From the IMG/VR virus record IMGVR_UViG_3300035698_011864, positions 1-29,194 of that record: a DNA stretch of 29,194 nucleotides. One strand, given 5' to 3'. The first letter of the stretch is position 1; every line of letters begins with the position of its first letter. A program made the position numbers and the translations under genes. This document shows, one piece after another, positions 3,789-29,194 of this stretch. The notes under the pieces are model-generated. The model saw nothing but the letters and a program-made list of their open reading frames with translations, was not told the DNA's origin and did no database searches. The DNA is from a virus.

Positions 3789-4127
3789 ATGAGTACGACA
3801 TACGAAACACTAGAATCAGCCCTAGACATCATCAGTGAAGACATAGCTAAGATCAAGACGCTATCTAAAACTAAAGACACTCTAGAACGCTCAGAAGCCA
3901 ACAAGCTTACCGACTATATCAAAGCTCTCCTATCTGTACATAAAGAAGAACGCGAAGAACTCAAGTCTATGTCCTTGAATACTAAGGGTGTAGGTGAACT
4001 TGAGGATCTCGCTAAAGAAGCTCTCACATTCCTGGGTCTAGCACCTGAAGAGGAAGAAGAGAGTGGAGAGATGCAAGGTCCACCGAGACCCAAGGAGATA
4101 GATGATGAGCCTACCGATAACACATAG
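3789..4127 (+). CDS. Hypothetical acidic-tailed helical protein, 112 aa
   Basis: The first 70 residues form long charged helices (ESALDIISEDIAKIKTL, LTDYIKALLSVHKEEREEL); the tail is acidic and proline-rich (EEEEESGEM, PPRPKEIDDEP). Such proteins often lie just upstream of large terminase genes, and an oligomeric small-terminase-like part cannot be excluded. GAGG lies upstream of the ATG. The last 23 bases overlap the acetyltransferase gene. Confidence 0.55.
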   Translation: MSTTYETLESALDIISEDIAKIKTLSKTKDTLERSEANKLTDYIKALLSVHKEEREELKSMSLNTKGVGELEDLAKEALTFLGLAPEEEEESGEMQGPPRPKEIDDEPTDNT

Positions 4128-4533
4128 ACCAATAATAAATACAGACGTACCTTTTATTTATTCAACATGGTTAAAGAGTTACAGACAGATGCCTTATGCA
4201 TCCTCGATGAGCAACGATACATTCTTCCATCATCATAAACAAGTAATCGAGAAGATCCTCGCTAAGCCTAACACCACAGTTATTATCATATGTGAAGATA
4301 CAGACCCCAATCACATCTATGGTTACTCAGTGGTAGAGACATACGGCGATGCTTCAATCATCCACTACGTCTATGTCAAACACAGTTACAGGAAGATGGG
4401 CCTTGCAGGAACATTACTCAAAGCTCAGATTCCTCTATTAGGAGAGAAGCTTACCTTTGTTTCACACGAGTCTAGACACCACCAGGCATTTAAGAGCAAG
4501 TTTAATATAGAATTCAATCCGTATATCATATAA
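4105..4533 (+). CDS. GNAT-family N-acetyltransferase
   Basis: Two ATGs stand in a row; AGGAG at 4093-4097 is 7 bases from the one at 4105, which is chosen (142 residues). The GNAT acetyl-CoA loop is seen as VYVKHSYRKMGLAGTLL (V-x-x-x-x-R-x-x-G-x-A), after the strand that precedes it (SIIHYVYV). The family moves acetyl from acetyl-CoA to an amine. Phage GNATs of this type sit among head genes in several podoviruses; the target is unknown. A second, shorter GNAT lies at 17507-17839. Confidence 0.8.
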   Translation: MSLPITHRPIINTDVPFIYSTWLKSYRQMPYASSMSNDTFFHHHKQVIEKILAKPNTTVIIICEDTDPNHIYGYSVVETYGDASIIHYVYVKHSYRKMGLAGTLLKAQIPLLGEKLTFVSHESRHHQAFKSKFNIEFNPYII

Positions 4534-17506: not shown

Positions 17507-17839
17507 ATGTATTTTGAGTATTTGATAGAGAGGCGTCCAGAATGCAAAGTATTGAAGAACGACAAAGGATTCGCCATTTATAGCTTTACAGATAACAGTG
17601 TCTATATTGAGGAAATATATGTTAAACCAGAATTCAGAAAAGAAGCAGTTGCATCTCAACTCTCTGAAACTATTCAACAAGAAGCTCGAGATATGGGATG
17701 TTTACAGGTACTAGGTTCTGTCTCACCATCTGCTCACGGCAGCACAGAATCAATAGCTGTACTTTTAGCTCACGGGATGACCTTAATGAGTAGTCAAGAC
17801 GATTTAATATGGTTTTACAAGAACCTAGAGGAAAAATAA
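17507..17839 (+). CDS. Small GNAT-family acetyltransferase
   Basis: The 110-residue protein has the GNAT core: a strand pair (GFAIYSFTDNSVYIEEIYVKPEF) followed by the acetyl-CoA region FRKEAVASQLSETIQQEA and a last strand ending LIWFYKN. The R/Q-x-x-G-x-G/A loop is reduced to RKEAVAS, so activity is less sure than for the GNAT at 4105. The N-terminal helices of full-length members are missing. GGAG precedes the ATG. The stop overlaps the next start (TAATG at 17837-17841). Confidence 0.7.
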   Translation: MYFEYLIERRPECKVLKNDKGFAIYSFTDNSVYIEEIYVKPEFRKEAVASQLSETIQQEARDMGCLQVLGSVSPSAHGSTESIAVLLAHGMTLMSSQDDLIWFYKNLEEK

Positions 17840-19302
17840 TGGGAACAGCAAAAAAAGCAGCAAAAAAAGCAGAGGGCGCGTTAAAAGCAGGAGCCGTGGG
17901 TGGTATTCCAGGCGCCATAGCCTCTGCTACCGGAGCCGACGAGACGCTAAAAAAGGCAGTTGACTCCGCAACAGGTAGAACTGCCGCCAGAAATAAAGAC
18001 GCTAAACAAACACAAGCCCAGGATGATGCAACCAGAAAGAGCGATGGAGTCTCTGCTGAAGCTGGAAGAATTCGAGAAGGGGCTGTTGAAAAGAAGACTG
18101 AACTAGAATCTAGATCTAGGGATATAGGTAAAGCAGAATCCGAACGCATTGATCGTAGTAGTGTTCGAGACATAGCAACAGAGAAATTGACTGGAGCTGG
18201 TGTTAAAGCTGCTGGTGTGGATGCTGCAACAATAGACAAAGATCCTCAAGCACAATTCCGAGACACTCAACAGACATTAGGAGCCCAACTAGCTGCAACT
18301 GCTGCCGGTCAAGGTGTTACTCCAGCGCAACTTCAACTGAAGCAAGCAACTGATCAGAATATAGCTCAACAAGCAGCAATGAGAGCAGGCGAATCTGGTG
18401 CTGGCGCGGCATTGGCAAGACGCGAAATAGGTAGAGTTGGTGCACAAACAGCACAACAAGGAGCACAACAGTCAGCGCTTCTAAGGTCTCAAGAAACCGC
18501 ACAAGCACAACAACAACTTGGAACCCTTGCAGATCAGGCCAGAACCCAAGATATTGGACTGGCTACCTCCCAAGCAGGTCTGGAACAACAAGCTAACTCT
18601 CAAGCTAGTGCCCAACAGCAAGCTGCATTTCTTCAAGGAAGTGCCCAAGAGCAAGAAGCTATGTTGGCAACTGCCGAGAATGACTTGCGAGCACAGATGG
18701 CCAACCAAGGTGTTGATCTGGATGTTCTTAAAGATAATGCAAAACGAGGTGATGCAGCTTCATTTGCCAACGTTCAAAGCCAGTTACAACAACTTGGTAT
18801 GTCAGATGCCATGATAAGATCATATATGGCACAGGAACTTGGTTCAGTCGGAGTACAAGCAAACATAGCCAACGCTCAGCAAGCAGCTATATCAGCTCAA
18901 GGCATTGCAGCACAGCAAGCAGCAGCACAAAGAGAAGCAGGCGGGATTGGAGTCCTTGGTGCCCTTGGAGCTGCAGGGATAGCGGCCTCAGATATTAACC
19001 TGAAAACCAATATTAAGGACGGTAAGAAATCAATTGGTGAATTCCTTAGCTCTTTAACATCTAATGATTATGAGTACAAAGACAAGAAATTCGGTAAAGG
19101 TAAACAAAACAGTGTGATGGCTCAAGAACTGCAGAAAACTGACATTGGATCTAAATCAGTCATCGAAACTCCTGAAGGACTCATGGTCGATTACCAAAGT
19201 CTTTTGCCGGCAATGTTGGCAGGTCTAGCTGAAACTCATAATACCGTTATGTCCTTAGAAGATGCACTATCTGCTAAGAAAATGAAGAAGGAAGCTAAAT
19301 AA
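17839..19302 (+). CDS. Internal virion protein with C-terminal S74 chaperone-like domain
   Basis: Start ATG 17839 forms TAATG with the GNAT stop and has GAGGAAAAATA before it. Of 487 residues, the first 380 are Ala/Gln-rich helix with little else (AQQAAMRAGESGAGAALARREIG; SAQEQEAMLATAEN), typical of proteins ejected with phage DNA. From residue 384 it reads SDINLKTNIKD, then YEYKD, NSVMAQEL and GLMVDYQSLLPAMLAGLAE, the pattern of the peptidase S74 intramolecular chaperone with the SD...K start. S74 domains normally trimerise tail spikes and cut themselves off, so the fusion to an ejection-type protein is notable. Confidence 0.75.
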   Translation: MGTAKKAAKKAEGALKAGAVGGIPGAIASATGADETLKKAVDSATGRTAARNKDAKQTQAQDDATRKSDGVSAEAGRIREGAVEKKTELESRSRDIGKAESERIDRSSVRDIATEKLTGAGVKAAGVDAATIDKDPQAQFRDTQQTLGAQLAATAAGQGVTPAQLQLKQATDQNIAQQAAMRAGESGAGAALARREIGRVGAQTAQQGAQQSALLRSQETAQAQQQLGTLADQARTQDIGLATSQAGLEQQANSQASAQQQAAFLQGSAQEQEAMLATAENDLRAQMANQGVDLDVLKDNAKRGDAASFANVQSQLQQLGMSDAMIRSYMAQELGSVGVQANIANAQQAAISAQGIAAQQAAAQREAGGIGVLGALGAAGIAASDINLKTNIKDGKKSIGEFLSSLTSNDYEYKDKKFGKGKQNSVMAQELQKTDIGSKSVIETPEGLMVDYQSLLPAMLAGLAETHNTVMSLEDALSAKKMKKEAK

Positions 19303-20900
19303 TGCCAACAATAGAAGAACTACAACAACTTAAAGATAAATCTGTGCAAGAAGAGCCAGGTTTCCTTGATAATTTAGGTAATGTTATAAAGAAGTTCCCT
19401 TTGAACCCATCACTCACTAACCCTCAGCCCAGTTTTAATGCACCTTTACCTACTGCGGCTATTCCACCTACTACGGCTATTCCACCTACTACTGTGGCTA
19501 TTCCACCTACTACGGCTATTCCACCTACTACTGCGGCAGCAGTGGTTGATTCAGCGTCTCCTGGAACCGATACTGAAGAAGATGATACAAAAGAAGATGA
19601 TACAAAAGAAGCCCTCAAAACAAAAGAAGTAGAACTAGTGGGTGCAGCCAAAGCACAAGAAGAATTATTCACTTCCTTAGAGGAGCAAGGACAAGCACAG
19701 ATAAAACAACTCGAAATCCAAAGTGAAGTTGCTGCAGCACAAGAAGAAGTAAATAGGCAAGCAGCAGCTGCGAAGGCTAGCCAAGCTGAACAAAATCAAG
19801 CAACTTTCGAGACAGTTATTGCTGATTATGATAAAAAGGTTGAAGACTTAAGTAATCAACAATATCAAGGCTATTGGGCTGACAAAAGTACAGGACATAA
19901 AATACTTGGGGCAATCAGCCTAGCGTTAGGTGCATACGCAAGTTCTATCGGGGGTGGACCAAATACTGCACTTAAGATAATTAATGGAGCTATCGAGGAT
20001 GATCTGGCTGCTTTTAAAACCAATACTCAGAACAAACTAAATGCACTACAGGCATCTAAAACTTCTGCAACTTTTAAACAGCAGCAAGGTAAGCAATTAC
20101 TCCTAAATCTCGAAGCTCGCAAGACAGCAAACCTTGCTCAAGTCTCTAATAAGATGGGATCTATGGGACAACGACTAGGTACAACAGCAGCCGCAGCTAA
20201 ACTAGAAGCAGCTAAAGCACAGATTGATGCTGAGCTTGCTGCTAAGAAGCTTGAGTTCGAGAATAAGCTATCTACTAAAATTGCCACGACTCGTAGATTA
20301 GCTGCCACTCCTGGACAAAAAGATGTTGATAAAGCTTATGCAAAAGACTTCAATAAGTTTATTGGAAAAGGTAGACAGAACGTCATTAACAGTATCGATA
20401 AACTAAATAAGCTTCAAAAAGAATTAGAGCAAGAAGCTAAGAGGCTATTTGGAGCTGGTGGCGGTACAATTGCTAGTTCAGTATCAGACGTCTTTAGGAC
20501 TGAGAAGAGTGTTCGCTTACGAGATGATATTCAAAATGCAGCCAACAGCTCATTGAAAGAACTATTTGGTGGAGGATTGAGTGATGCTGAAAGAATGAGT
20601 GCTGCAAAAGAATTTTATAATGACAGCTTAGGTTCAGAAAACAACGCTAAGATCTTGAGAAGAAAAATAGGTGAGCTTCAGTCTGGTTTAAAAAATGAAA
20701 CTGAAAAAGCTAGATTCTTTAGAAAACATGGAACTCTTACTGGGTTTGGAGCTGGAGTCTTAGATGAGGTTGTCAACCAAATTGCTCCAGATGGACGCCA
20801 GCCACAATTCCCAATGACAATAACAAAAGATGGAAGTGAAGCTTCCGTAAGCAATGAAGCTGAATTAACAGAAGCCCTTAGCGAAGGATGGTCGAAATAA
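19302..20900 (+). CDS. Internal virion / DNA-ejection protein with AIPPTT repeats
   Basis: The 532-residue protein is coupled to the previous gene by TAATG. Residues about 50-80 hold four AIPPTT repeats. An acidic segment (TEEDDTKEDDTKEA) follows, then long Ala/Gln/Glu helices (about 110-180), a glycine-rich hydrophobic hairpin that could enter a membrane (KILGAISLALGAYASSIGGG), and further helices to the end. Proteins of this composition in this place are carried inside the head and form the channel across the cell envelope at infection. Role inferred. Confidence 0.68.
   Translation: MPTIEELQQLKDKSVQEEPGFLDNLGNVIKKFPLNPSLTNPQPSFNAPLPTAAIPPTTAIPPTTVAIPPTTAIPPTTAAAVVDSASPGTDTEEDDTKEDDTKEALKTKEVELVGAAKAQEELFTSLEEQGQAQIKQLEIQSEVAAAQEEVNRQAAAAKASQAEQNQATFETVIADYDKKVEDLSNQQYQGYWADKSTGHKILGAISLALGAYASSIGGGPNTALKIINGAIEDDLAAFKTNTQNKLNALQASKTSATFKQQQGKQLLLNLEARKTANLAQVSNKMGSMGQRLGTTAAAAKLEAAKAQIDAELAAKKLEFENKLSTKIATTRRLAATPGQKDVDKAYAKDFNKFIGKGRQNVINSIDKLNKLQKELEQEAKRLFGAGGGTIASSVSDVFRTEKSVRLRDDIQNAANSSLKELFGGGLSDAERMSAAKEFYNDSLGSENNAKILRRKIGELQSGLKNETEKARFFRKHGTLTGFGAGVLDEVVNQIAPDGRQPQFPMTITKDGSEASVSNEAELTEALSEGWSK
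19458..19535 (+). repeat. Four 18-base tandem repeats coding AIPPTT
   Basis: The unit GCTATTCCACCTACTACG recurs four times with one 3-base insertion (GTG) between the second and third. It makes a proline-rich linker. Copy number may vary between relatives. Confidence 0.85.
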
Positions 20901-26330: not shown

Positions 26331-27029
26331 TTACACATTCCTGTTAAGAGTCTGTTGTATATCAGTCTGTGTTGCTTCAGTGTCCATATCGATACTCTTA
26401 CCGTCCTTTTCTTCTTCTGATGTAAGGTTTTGCTGAAGACGATCAAGGGCCTCTGGGGCAATCCTAGGAACACCTAACACAAGAGACAAGATGTTATTCT
26501 TTTGTCGTGACATGGATGCTCCGTCTTTGCCTTGTAATTCAGCAATCTGCTCTAATATAGCTTCTTTAAGAGATTGAGCATACTCAGGATAGAACAACTC
26601 CAAAGCATCAACTTCAGTTCCTGTTAACGAGCCAGCCCTCATCAGCTCTAGAATATGACCAGGATCTTGAAGCACTCGTACTGACCTGATGAATTTACTC
26701 TTTTCAAAGTCAGAAGGCTCTCGTTCATCAATTCCAAACAAGTCAACACTTAAATTAACTGGAACCGATTGCCTAAGTTGTTCAAAATGCTGAGCCATCT
26801 GAGCTACACGTACATCCCGATCTTCCCCTTCACCTTCAGAAGCGATCTTCAAGATCTTGTCTTCACCTAGTCCTTTATCAATCGCCGCTTTAATCTTGCC
26901 AAAATCAGCTAACTTAAAAGCTGGTTCAAACTTATGTGAACCAAAGTCGTTTTTGATAAATTCACTTATCTCTTTATTAACATTTACTTTTTTAGGACTC
27001 TTGCCTAAATTTAACATCTTTACCAGCAT
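26331..27029 (-). CDS. Virion-type helical protein on the early strand, 232 aa
   Basis: AAGGAGACAAG precedes the ATG. The first 80 residues are charged helices (FGKIKAAIDKGLGEDKI). The region ILELMRAGSLTGTEVDALELFYPEYAQSLKEAI, followed by NNILSLVLGVPRIAPEALDRLQ, resembles a module I know from the C-terminal part of large phage ejection or head proteins. Here it stands alone and on the strand opposite to the other virion genes. It may be a separate structural protein made with the lysis genes. The resemblance is from memory and needs a profile search. Confidence 0.5.
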   Translation of the reverse strand: MLVKMLNLGKSPKKVNVNKEISEFIKNDFGSHKFEPAFKLADFGKIKAAIDKGLGEDKILKIASEGEGEDRDVRVAQMAQHFEQLRQSVPVNLSVDLFGIDEREPSDFEKSKFIRSVRVLQDPGHILELMRAGSLTGTEVDALELFYPEYAQSLKEAILEQIAELQGKDGASMSRQKNNILSLVLGVPRIAPEALDRLQQNLTSEEEKDGKSIDMDTEATQTDIQQTLNRNV

Positions 27030-27119
27030 CTTGTCTCCTTACACTGCATTCAATAATACCAATCCAGTATATATGAGGGATAACCCTCCACGACCCTTAA
27101 TCACAGGAGTGACCTAACC
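27030..27119. promoter_or_regulatory. Divergent spacer between minus block and fibre genes
   Basis: The 90 bases separate two ATGs facing away from each other. On the minus strand GGTATTATTG is a possible -10. A perfect hairpin or operator GAGGG-ATAA-CCCTC lies at 27075-27088. AGTATATATGAG at 27067-27078 also occurs before the GNAT gene (17479-17490), so it may be a second promoter motif. Confidence 0.45.
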
Positions 27120-27461
27120 ATGGGCTCAAAGAGAACACTTACATATTCAGAACTTATAGTGGCAGGAGATATGTCAGAAGACATCACTGGCCCTTCCACT
27201 AATATCCTACACCTAGATCGGGTAGGTTTTCAGTTAGTTTGGACTGGAACACCCACTGGCACCTTTAGTGTCGAGGTCTCCAATGACGAGGAGACTTGGG
27301 CCGCAATGACATTATCTGTAGCTGTGACTGCTGCTGGCAGTGCCGACAATGCCTTTCTGGATATTGAGACGGGTGCCGCATACGTTAGGGTCAAATATAC
27401 CGATACCAGCGGCACAGGCTCATTGGATGCCCACATAGTAGCTAAGAGTATCAGCGGATGA
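27120..27461 (+). CDS. Virion beta-sandwich protein, 113 aa
   Basis: The start follows CACAGGAGTGACCTAACC. The protein is one beta sandwich: NILHLDRVGFQLVWTGTPTG, TFSVEVSNDEETWAAMTL, AYVRVKYTDTSGTGSLDAHIVAKS. This WTGTPTGTFSVxVSND pattern is familiar from small phage decoration or fibre-base proteins. It lies just before the fibre gene and is coupled to it through a 27-codon ORF, so it may cap or hold the fibre. Confidence 0.65.
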   Translation: MGSKRTLTYSELIVAGDMSEDITGPSTNILHLDRVGFQLVWTGTPTGTFSVEVSNDEETWAAMTLSVAVTAAGSADNAFLDIETGAAYVRVKYTDTSGTGSLDAHIVAKSISG

Positions 27462-27541
27462 GTTTGGCTCTCGTTGAAGCGACGAAAATCTGTAACTTGA
27501 CACTAGAGTCCGCCATATCTTGTCTCAAGGAGTTGAAATAA
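27458..27541 (+). CDS. 27-residue coupling ORF
   Basis: Its ATG overlaps the previous stop (ATGA) and its TAA overlaps the fibre ATG (TAATG). It reads MSLALVEATKICNLTLESAI to LKELK. The AAGGAG ribosome site of the fibre gene lies inside it. Exact overlaps at both ends suggest it is translated. Confidence 0.45.
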   Translation: MSLALVEATKICNLTLESAISCLKELK

Positions 27542-28854
27542 TGAGCCAATACGCCAGTGCCTCCGGGTTTAAAGGAACATCCATTGGGTTGGTTGACCCC
27601 ATGACTACACGGGGCGACCTCATTTACAAGAATGCAGCGAGTGCTACGGCCCGATTACCCGTAGGCACCACAGATCAATTCCTAGGTTCAGATGGCACAG
27701 ATAGTGCATGGGCCACGATTTCTCACCTGGTTCTAACTAGTATCGGAACCAAAAGTCACGCAACGATCGATTCGGAGCTTGACGCTAAGCTAGATGACTT
27801 CACCTCTACAACGGACCATGCCTTGGTTCGAACGGATGGAACTTCCGGGGAAGCCGTACAAGATAGTGGAATCATTATCGATGACAGTGACAATATATCC
27901 GGCATTGCTAGTATTACCATCGGTGGCGACGTTGTTTTGAACCGGGATAGTGCAAACGTGCTTCGAACCCCGGATTCTCTTATTGTTGACGGGGATCTGA
28001 CCGTTAGTGGCACGACGACAACAATAAATACAGCCAACCTGGCAGTGGAAGACGCTAATATTCTTATGAATAGTGGTGCAGGTGCCGCACCAGCCGATGA
28101 CGTAGCCGGTCTTTCAATCGAAAGAGGAGCTTCTGGTGCAGATGGTAGCCTTGTCTGGAATGAGACTAACGATCGATTTAAACAAGGACTTGTGGGATCG
28201 GAAGTCGAGATTGTTGATTTAACTGGAACCCAAGTACTTACCAACAAGACGATGACCTCACCAGTACTCAACACTGCCATCTCGGGTACTGCTTTCCTGG
28301 ATGAAGATGATTTAACTAGCGATTCTGCTACTAAAGTCGCGTCCCAGCAGAGCATCAAGGCCTATGTTGATGCTGCAACCCCAGTAGCCGCTACACCCAC
28401 AGCTACTGGATTGGTTAAAGCCCCTAATTCATTCATAAGAATGCAGGGCGGTAATGGCCACGGTAGTACGGCCACTAAAATCCGAAGATTCACCAATACG
28501 GTAACAAGTACGGGATCTAATATCACTTTGACACAAAGTGCCACGGCAGGTGATAAATTCACCATTAACGCAAGCGGTATCTATGCCATCTCTTACTTTG
28601 ATTTATATGATGTCATCAGCCCTTTCGGATTAACCCTTAACAGCACCCAGACAACGACATCAATCGAGAATGTTACCCCCGAGACTGTTAGATTGGCCAT
28701 GGGTTACTCCAACGTCGTCAACCATACAGATACAATCTGTTGGACCGGGCACCTGGATGCAACAGATTATATCTATGCCCACACTTTGGGATCGGCCAGT
28801 ACCAACGCACCTGGCAGGGTAGGTTTCTCTATCGTACAGATCTCAGAAGATTAA
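27541..28854 (+). CDS. Tail fibre protein with C1q-like tip
   Basis: ATG 27541 has AAGGAG 8 bases upstream; a TTG start at 27520 is less likely. Of 437 residues, the first 100 hold repeated beta segments with MTTRGDLIYKNAASATARLPVG, a common phage fibre block. Then come GGDVVLNRDSANVLRTPDSL, DGDLTVSGTTTTINTANLAVED and LTGTQVLTNKTMTSPVLN, typical shaft repeats. After SATKVASQQSIKAYVDAATP and TPTATGLVKAPNSF, the last 130 residues form a C1q/TNF-like jelly roll (FTINASGIYAISYFDLYD to VQISED). The tip would bind the host surface. Its end is repeated at bases 1-104. Confidence 0.85.
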   Translation: MSQYASASGFKGTSIGLVDPMTTRGDLIYKNAASATARLPVGTTDQFLGSDGTDSAWATISHLVLTSIGTKSHATIDSELDAKLDDFTSTTDHALVRTDGTSGEAVQDSGIIIDDSDNISGIASITIGGDVVLNRDSANVLRTPDSLIVDGDLTVSGTTTTINTANLAVEDANILMNSGAGAAPADDVAGLSIERGASGADGSLVWNETNDRFKQGLVGSEVEIVDLTGTQVLTNKTMTSPVLNTAISGTAFLDEDDLTSDSATKVASQQSIKAYVDAATPVAATPTATGLVKAPNSFIRMQGGNGHGSTATKIRRFTNTVTSTGSNITLTQSATAGDKFTINASGIYAISYFDLYDVISPFGLTLNSTQTTTSIENVTPETVRLAMGYSNVVNHTDTICWTGHLDATDYIYAHTLGSASTNAPGRVGFSIVQISED

Positions 28855-28893
28855 ACAAAGGAAATTAAATCATGAGTTTAGACTTAATAAGAA
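28751..28893 (+). repeat. Direct repeat, right copy (fibre end, spacer and MSLDLIR start)
   Basis: This is the second copy of bases 1-138, in the same direction. The 74 identical bases are here at 28792-28865. It has a 5-base insertion before the ATG at 28872. Confidence 0.9.
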
Positions 28894-29194
28894 AAAAATG
28901 ATAAAGAGCAAACCAGCACAGAGATAGAGTCTGATATTGGGGACGCTACTACCAGTACCGCAGGGCTAGTTAAGATACTGCCCGCTATAAGACTAAGTAT
29001 AAGTTCAGGATATGCTATCCCGTCCAATACGGCGATTAACTATGACACAGAGGACTACAAGGTAGGGACTTGGTCCCATACTAGCGGTACTGTGACTATC
29101 CTTGAGACTGGGTTGTACTTATTTGTGGGTTCTATAGAAAGTTCTGGCAACTTTTCCGGAGGTGAGGAGTTTTACCTGAGGCGAGGCAACACCA
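28872..29194 (+). CDS. Second fibre tip module, partial, out of frame at an A7 tract
   Basis: ATG 28872 reads MSLDLIRKK and stops at TGA 28899-28901. The +1 frame then runs open to the window end and is clearly protein: STAGLVKILPAIRLSISSGY, YKVGTWSHTSGTVTILETG and LYLFVGSIESSG, a C1q-like jelly roll as in the gene before. It has no start codon of its own. Six A instead of seven at 28892-28898 would join MSLDLIRKN to DKEQTSTEIE in one frame. So the gene is off by slippage, is frameshifted in translation, or carries a sequence error. The 3' end lies outside the window. Confidence 0.7.

Follow-up and report, generated by a model that had tools for sequence, protein, structure and literature searches.

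In marine phages, metaviromic islands contain C1q-domain receptor-binding genes beside the tail fibre, which under-recruit and vary among concurrent strains (PMC3909814). In the Ackermannviridae, gene addition led to tsp4/tsp5 recombination or deletion (PMC11414711). Fibre-gene duplications in the Xanthomonas phages Xp10, OP1 and Xop411 and in EfV12-phi1 alter host range or accompany gained infectivity (PMC2248197, PMC6365445), and short direct repeats surround the duplicated fibre domains of the Xanthomonas phages (PMC2248197).

The locus analysed here is likely an unusual example of a known variable fibre-tip cassette, in tandem arrangement. A tip following directly after the fibre gene, a trait of such cassettes, was found (27520-28854, then a second tip frame), and the relatives are similar. 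The less usual feature is the common part, which is a 3' end, an RBS and the next start. With the metaviromic islands the locus has in common a C1q-like module near the tail fibre, diverged tip cores, more conserved flanks and an uncultured phage as its source; the islands, however, were reported as under-recruiting in read mapping, whereas the present locus adds a near-identical junction of two modules, known from one contig sequence (PMC3909814). The multi-tailspike clusters of Ackermannviridae similarly have successive receptor-binding genes with common parts able to recombine, but they share a 5' assembly domain, whereas here the 3' end, the RBS and the start of the next ORF are shared, and the likeness is one of arrangement (PMC11414711). 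Fibre-domain duplications resemble the locus in their tandem repetition within the fibre locus; in contrast to the separate ORFs with diverged cores described here, they are in-frame inside one gene and have been seen to vary. The pelagiphages HTVC103P, HTVC104P and HTVC115P and Puniceispirillum phage HMO-2011 have fibre/structural proteins with a stalk segment of about 50 aa that is 72-82% identical to fibre 1 (residues ~234-284), but the tip is unmatched and their genomes measure 54-55 kb.

The window, i.e. the whole stretch of DNA that was analysed, is the entire virus record (29,194 bases, classed as linear), and both copies of the junction are the ends of one metagenomic contig. The window probably represents the almost complete genome of a tailed, uncultured phage and was opened within the receptor-binding cassette. 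Recognisable proteins are a terminase, a portal, a coat protein, a DnaB-like helicase, an initiator and a metallophosphoesterase. Relatives of the coat protein in IMG/VR showed identities of up to 87%, and terminase and portal are 55-66% identical in the three closest coat relatives. Distant from the fibre cassette, the ORF at 17809-19302 has a C-terminal Peptidase_S74 domain (chaperone of endosialidase). Two acetyltransferase-like ORFs (GNAT by eye) lie at 4102-4533 and 17507-17839; the former is kept immediately before the terminase in many relatives.

The two ends of the window contain the following features:

27120-27461, + strand: small conserved ORF of 113 aa that heads the fibre cassette (weak PHROG tail/unknown matches)
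27520-28854, + strand: fibre gene 1, 444 aa, with a structural-protein stalk (phrog_6002) and its own C-terminal tip
28414-28851, + strand: tip region of fibre 1, weakly C1q-like (E 0.017 in a single comparison to the C1q domains of relatives)
28751-28901, + strand: right junction copy, comprising the fibre end, AAAGGAAATTAAATC and the MSLDLIRKK ORF (136/151 to 1-146)
28872-28901, + strand: ORF MSLDLIRKK-stop, with TGA at 28899-28901 (read from the sequence)
28891-29194, + strand: second tip, an open, stop-free frame cut by the contig end
1-146, + strand: left junction copy (by alignment to 28751-28901)
3-104, + strand: last 33 residues of a fibre/tip ORF truncated at the contig start, the C-terminal 27 residues being identical to fibre 1
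117-146, + strand: ORF MSLDLIRIR-stop, nine codons (read from the sequence)
143-277, + strand: zinc-ribbon-like ORF of 44 aa with two CxxC motifs (weak Pfam zinc-domain matches, below cut-off)
238-573, + strand: holin-like ORF with a coiled coil and a C-terminal hydrophobic stretch (by eye from the sequence)

Alignment of positions 1-146 with 28751-28901 revealed direct copies with 136/151 identities and one 5-base gap. The longest exact run comprises 74 bases (42-115 = 28792-28865) and confirms the first-pass annotation, which had reported the junction at both window ends in direct orientation with 74 identical bases. The second-longest exact repeat of the window has 38 bases and lies within a coding repeat at 19457. 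Chance as the origin of the 74-base repeat was ruled out, as the longest exact repeats in 20 shuffles of the sequence measured 13-16 bases. Each copy consists of the end of a fibre ORF, then AAAGGAAAT and then the MSLDLIR start; on the left the order is 33 fibre-type codons, a stop, AAAGGAAATC and MSLDLIRIR-stop. Substitutions and a TAAAT indel distinguish the copies, and to the right of the repeat the remaining 293 bases are unlike the left-end sequence. An assembly overlap of one single copy, which had been named beforehand as the finding that would speak against the repeat, was ruled out, strictly taken, by the differences between the copies and by their diverging flanks. Direct terminal repeats, as in linear phage genomes, were likewise ruled out because the copies are non-identical and 293 bases separate the right copy from the contig end. 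An end-to-end direct repeat was found in 0/56 whole relative contigs, and the repeat of the window is therefore not a routine assembly product.

Within the first 19 bases of the left end, five positions differ from the right copy. Eighteen of these 19 bases are identical to 28296-28313 in fibre gene 1, about 450 bases upstream, and CCTGGATG occurs at three sites only, namely the left end, the right copy and 28296-28313. The leftmost bases are thus less trustworthy, and the match hints at a chimeric or allelic left end; the patch may be a small conversion patch, an allele or a contig-end error. If allelic, the two ends would represent two versions of one junction from concurrent strains with or without a second tip gene, and no tandem array would exist in one genome: the left end would come from a strain without the second tip (fibre 1 end, MSLDLIRIR, zinc ribbon) and the right end from one that carries it. 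With few changes, the left copy could represent the end of fibre 1 itself, and the match of 18 bases elsewhere in fibre 1 points in the same direction. Assemblies that break at a strain branch, however, normally retain a long stretch of exact identity there, and the left end starts with just 9 matching bases followed by the divergent patch. Receptor-binding genes of marine phages are known to vary strongly among concurrent strains (PMC3909814); still, we regard two alleles, including this assignment of the ends to strains, as rather unlikely.

At the right end, the codons of the MSLDLIRKK ORF are ATG AGT TTA GAC TTA ATA AGA AAA AAA TGA. The frame of the second tip reads KNDKEQTSTEIESDIGDATTSTAGLVK...TGLYLFVGSIE...YLRRGNT and is +1 relative to MSLDLIR, across an A7 run at 28892-28898. 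No ATG, GTG or TTG was found near its 5' end. Judged by the reading frames, MSLDLIR would most simply be its natural start, which would require a one-base change in or near the A7 run. The loss of register between MSLDLIR and the second tip at this run could reflect an error, decay or phase variation. A search for a frameshift-driving RNA structure at the junction revealed none beyond shuffles (z -0.73). A contig-end artefact, in which ~300 bases at the right end or ~20 at the left end stem from a mis-join to the fibre module of another phage via the shared junction, would agree with the one-base frame break, which falls precisely on the A7 run at the beginning of the new module, with the divergent patch at the extreme left end, and with joins that have no confirmation from relatives, none having been found for either tip. 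As the differences between the junction copies are not explained by one simple overlap and the GC content of the right end agrees with the fibre, we consider this artefact decidedly unlikely.

To characterise the tips, we used an alignment of four C1q domains from the relatives G004, G008 and G026. The second tip matched this alignment with E 0.0029 (single comparison) and phrog_15750 with E 0.0038. The corresponding value for the fibre 1 tip was 0.017, and another part of fibre 1 gave 0.83. The hhalign probabilities for the tips against the C1q domains of relatives were low (11% and 3%). A C1q-related factor was among the top PDB matches of the fibre 1 tip (E 0.1, not significant), Pfam C1q (PF00386) showed no match above cut-off in the window, and structure models of the tips (pLDDT 33 and 41) were too low in confidence to show a ten-stranded jelly-roll fold. 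Among the fibre cassettes of relatives, one ORF of G004 contains two C1q domains above the Pfam cut-off, and weaker ones are present in G008 and G026. For the tips of the window, 'C1q-like' may be taken as a reasonable lead, not as family membership. The right junction had been described as leading into a new C1q-like tip; a new module is present there, but it is out of frame with MSLDLIR and its C1q likeness is weak.

The left end had been described as a stub from which the new module is missing. The MSLDLIR ORF is short there, but it is a nine-codon ORF whose TGA overlaps the ATG of the next ORF (ATGA coupling), the 44-aa zinc-ribbon-like ORF. The holin-like ORF (238-573) showed no significant family match. 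The truncated ORF 3-104 probably forms the 3' end of the second tip gene.

With moderate confidence we favour a tandem tip array on a circular or permuted genome, with both contig ends belonging to one fibre cassette. The genome would have been cut open inside this cassette, and on the closed map the ORF 27120-27461 would be followed, in this order, by fibre gene 1 and its tip, a short second tip gene, the MSLDLIRIR mini-ORF, the zinc-ribbon ORF and the holin-like gene. The two contig ends would then adjoin, and the two partial ORFs would form one gene, starting at MSLDLIR (28872...) and finishing at window position 104. The gene ends, the following RBS and the MSLDLIR start would have arisen by duplication, or stayed similar through recombination, as the tip cores drifted apart. 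The tips presumably bind host receptors, and recombination at the conserved ends could lead to tips being added, dropped or exchanged.

Several observations argue for this closed map. Fibre-type sequence is present at either end of the record, and the left end has the layout of the relatives, with a fibre C-terminus, short ORFs and a holin-like ORF. The GC content of the two partial ORFs (46% and 49%) fits fibre 1 (48%) and not the phage mean (42%). Successive tip domains or ORFs are found in relatives, with an ORF of G004 that contains two C1q domains and with adjoining paralogous C-termini in G026 (37% over 107 aa). The lack of end-to-end repeats in the 56 relative contigs also fits. Counted from the G of the G-[IL]-Y motif common to both tips, 91 residues follow in fibre 1 and 27 in the right module (~64 fewer), and the left fragment supplies 33; in one gene about 31 residues (~90 bases) would thus be missing, which is a projection and not a measurement. 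The scanned window ORFs include no recognisable endolysin, so the unassembled stretch may exceed ~90 bases. Against the closed map stand the classification of the record as linear, the frame of the second tip, which disagrees with that of the sole start likely for it, and the 18-base match of the extreme left end to the upstream site in fibre 1. The tandem tip modules with near-identical junctions proposed in the first-pass annotation are accordingly the most likely anatomy if the ends adjoin, but the middle of the second module is unassembled, its frame is shifted and the copies are maybe two alleles.

Homologues of the ORF 27120-27461 were found in 14/27 relatives (61% identical in G001), and the fibre genes of relatives differ downstream of it. 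Fibre 1, whose residues 109-258 correspond to the virion structural protein phrog_6002, matched only 1/27 relative records, and weakly. Searches of viral contigs revealed no relatives of the fibre 1 tip, the second tip or the holin-like ORF, and searches of genome contigs for the tips and the holin-like ORF revealed nothing useful, with one weak match of 58 aa; either tip is thus without relatives found, while the coat protein reaches 87% identity. The comparison with related phages, suggested earlier as a check, did not extend the observation, as none of the fibre regions of 14 relatives holds such a near-identical direct repeat at fibre ORF junctions; the repeats present there are 60-82% alike and lie mostly inside coding regions. 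No further copy of the junction was detected in IMG/VR by exact or degenerate pattern, and a search for the MSLDLIR start across 128 loci (1.2 Mb) revealed the window's own copies only.

In four relative loci (L116, L121, L122, L128), small ORFs that contain a coiled coil or a hydrophobic stretch lie shortly after the fibre genes (by eye). GIY-YIG homing-endonuclease-like ORFs lie between two fibre ORFs in L120 (G026; 205 aa) and L123 (G004; 217 aa) (by eye), and HNH-like ORFs adjoin fibre genes in L118 and L122; these endonucleases could help to move fibre modules. Comparison of window 26331-28854 with L015 (G001) showed that the block with the homologues of 26331-27029 and 27120-27461 is inverted relative to the terminase genes in this relative.

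Long direct repeats are in principle able to recombine, and from its arrangement host-range switching through this repeat, as proposed in the first-pass annotation, is possible. A dedicated switching cassette, in which tips would be switched on, off or over as the phage grows, through repeat recombination or slippage at the A7 run, would accord with the long exact direct repeat flanking a module and with an A7 run where the second tip, out of frame in this record, has its only likely start. In other phages, altered host range or infectivity goes along with a changed number of repeats in fibre genes (PMC2248197, PMC6365445). However, the window proteins scanned include no recombinase, invertase or reverse transcriptase, and the fibre regions of the 14 relatives have no such junction; we consider a dedicated cassette extremely improbable. 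As to a diversity-generating retroelement or a site-specific inversion cassette, the repeat described here is direct and not inverted, and the proteins scanned, which did not cover every small ORF of a maybe incomplete genome, contain neither a reverse transcriptase nor an invertase. It is very doubtful, too, that a tip array uses its shared 3' ends, RBS and next starts as recombination handles and a slipping A7 run as an on/off switch, which would give several receptor specificities per population.

Features at the ends of metagenomic virus contigs are best read on the closed map, and the two ends of this window are probably one locus. If the array is real and variable, it would offer small uncultured phages a concrete, repeat-mediated means of gaining or losing receptor-binding tips.
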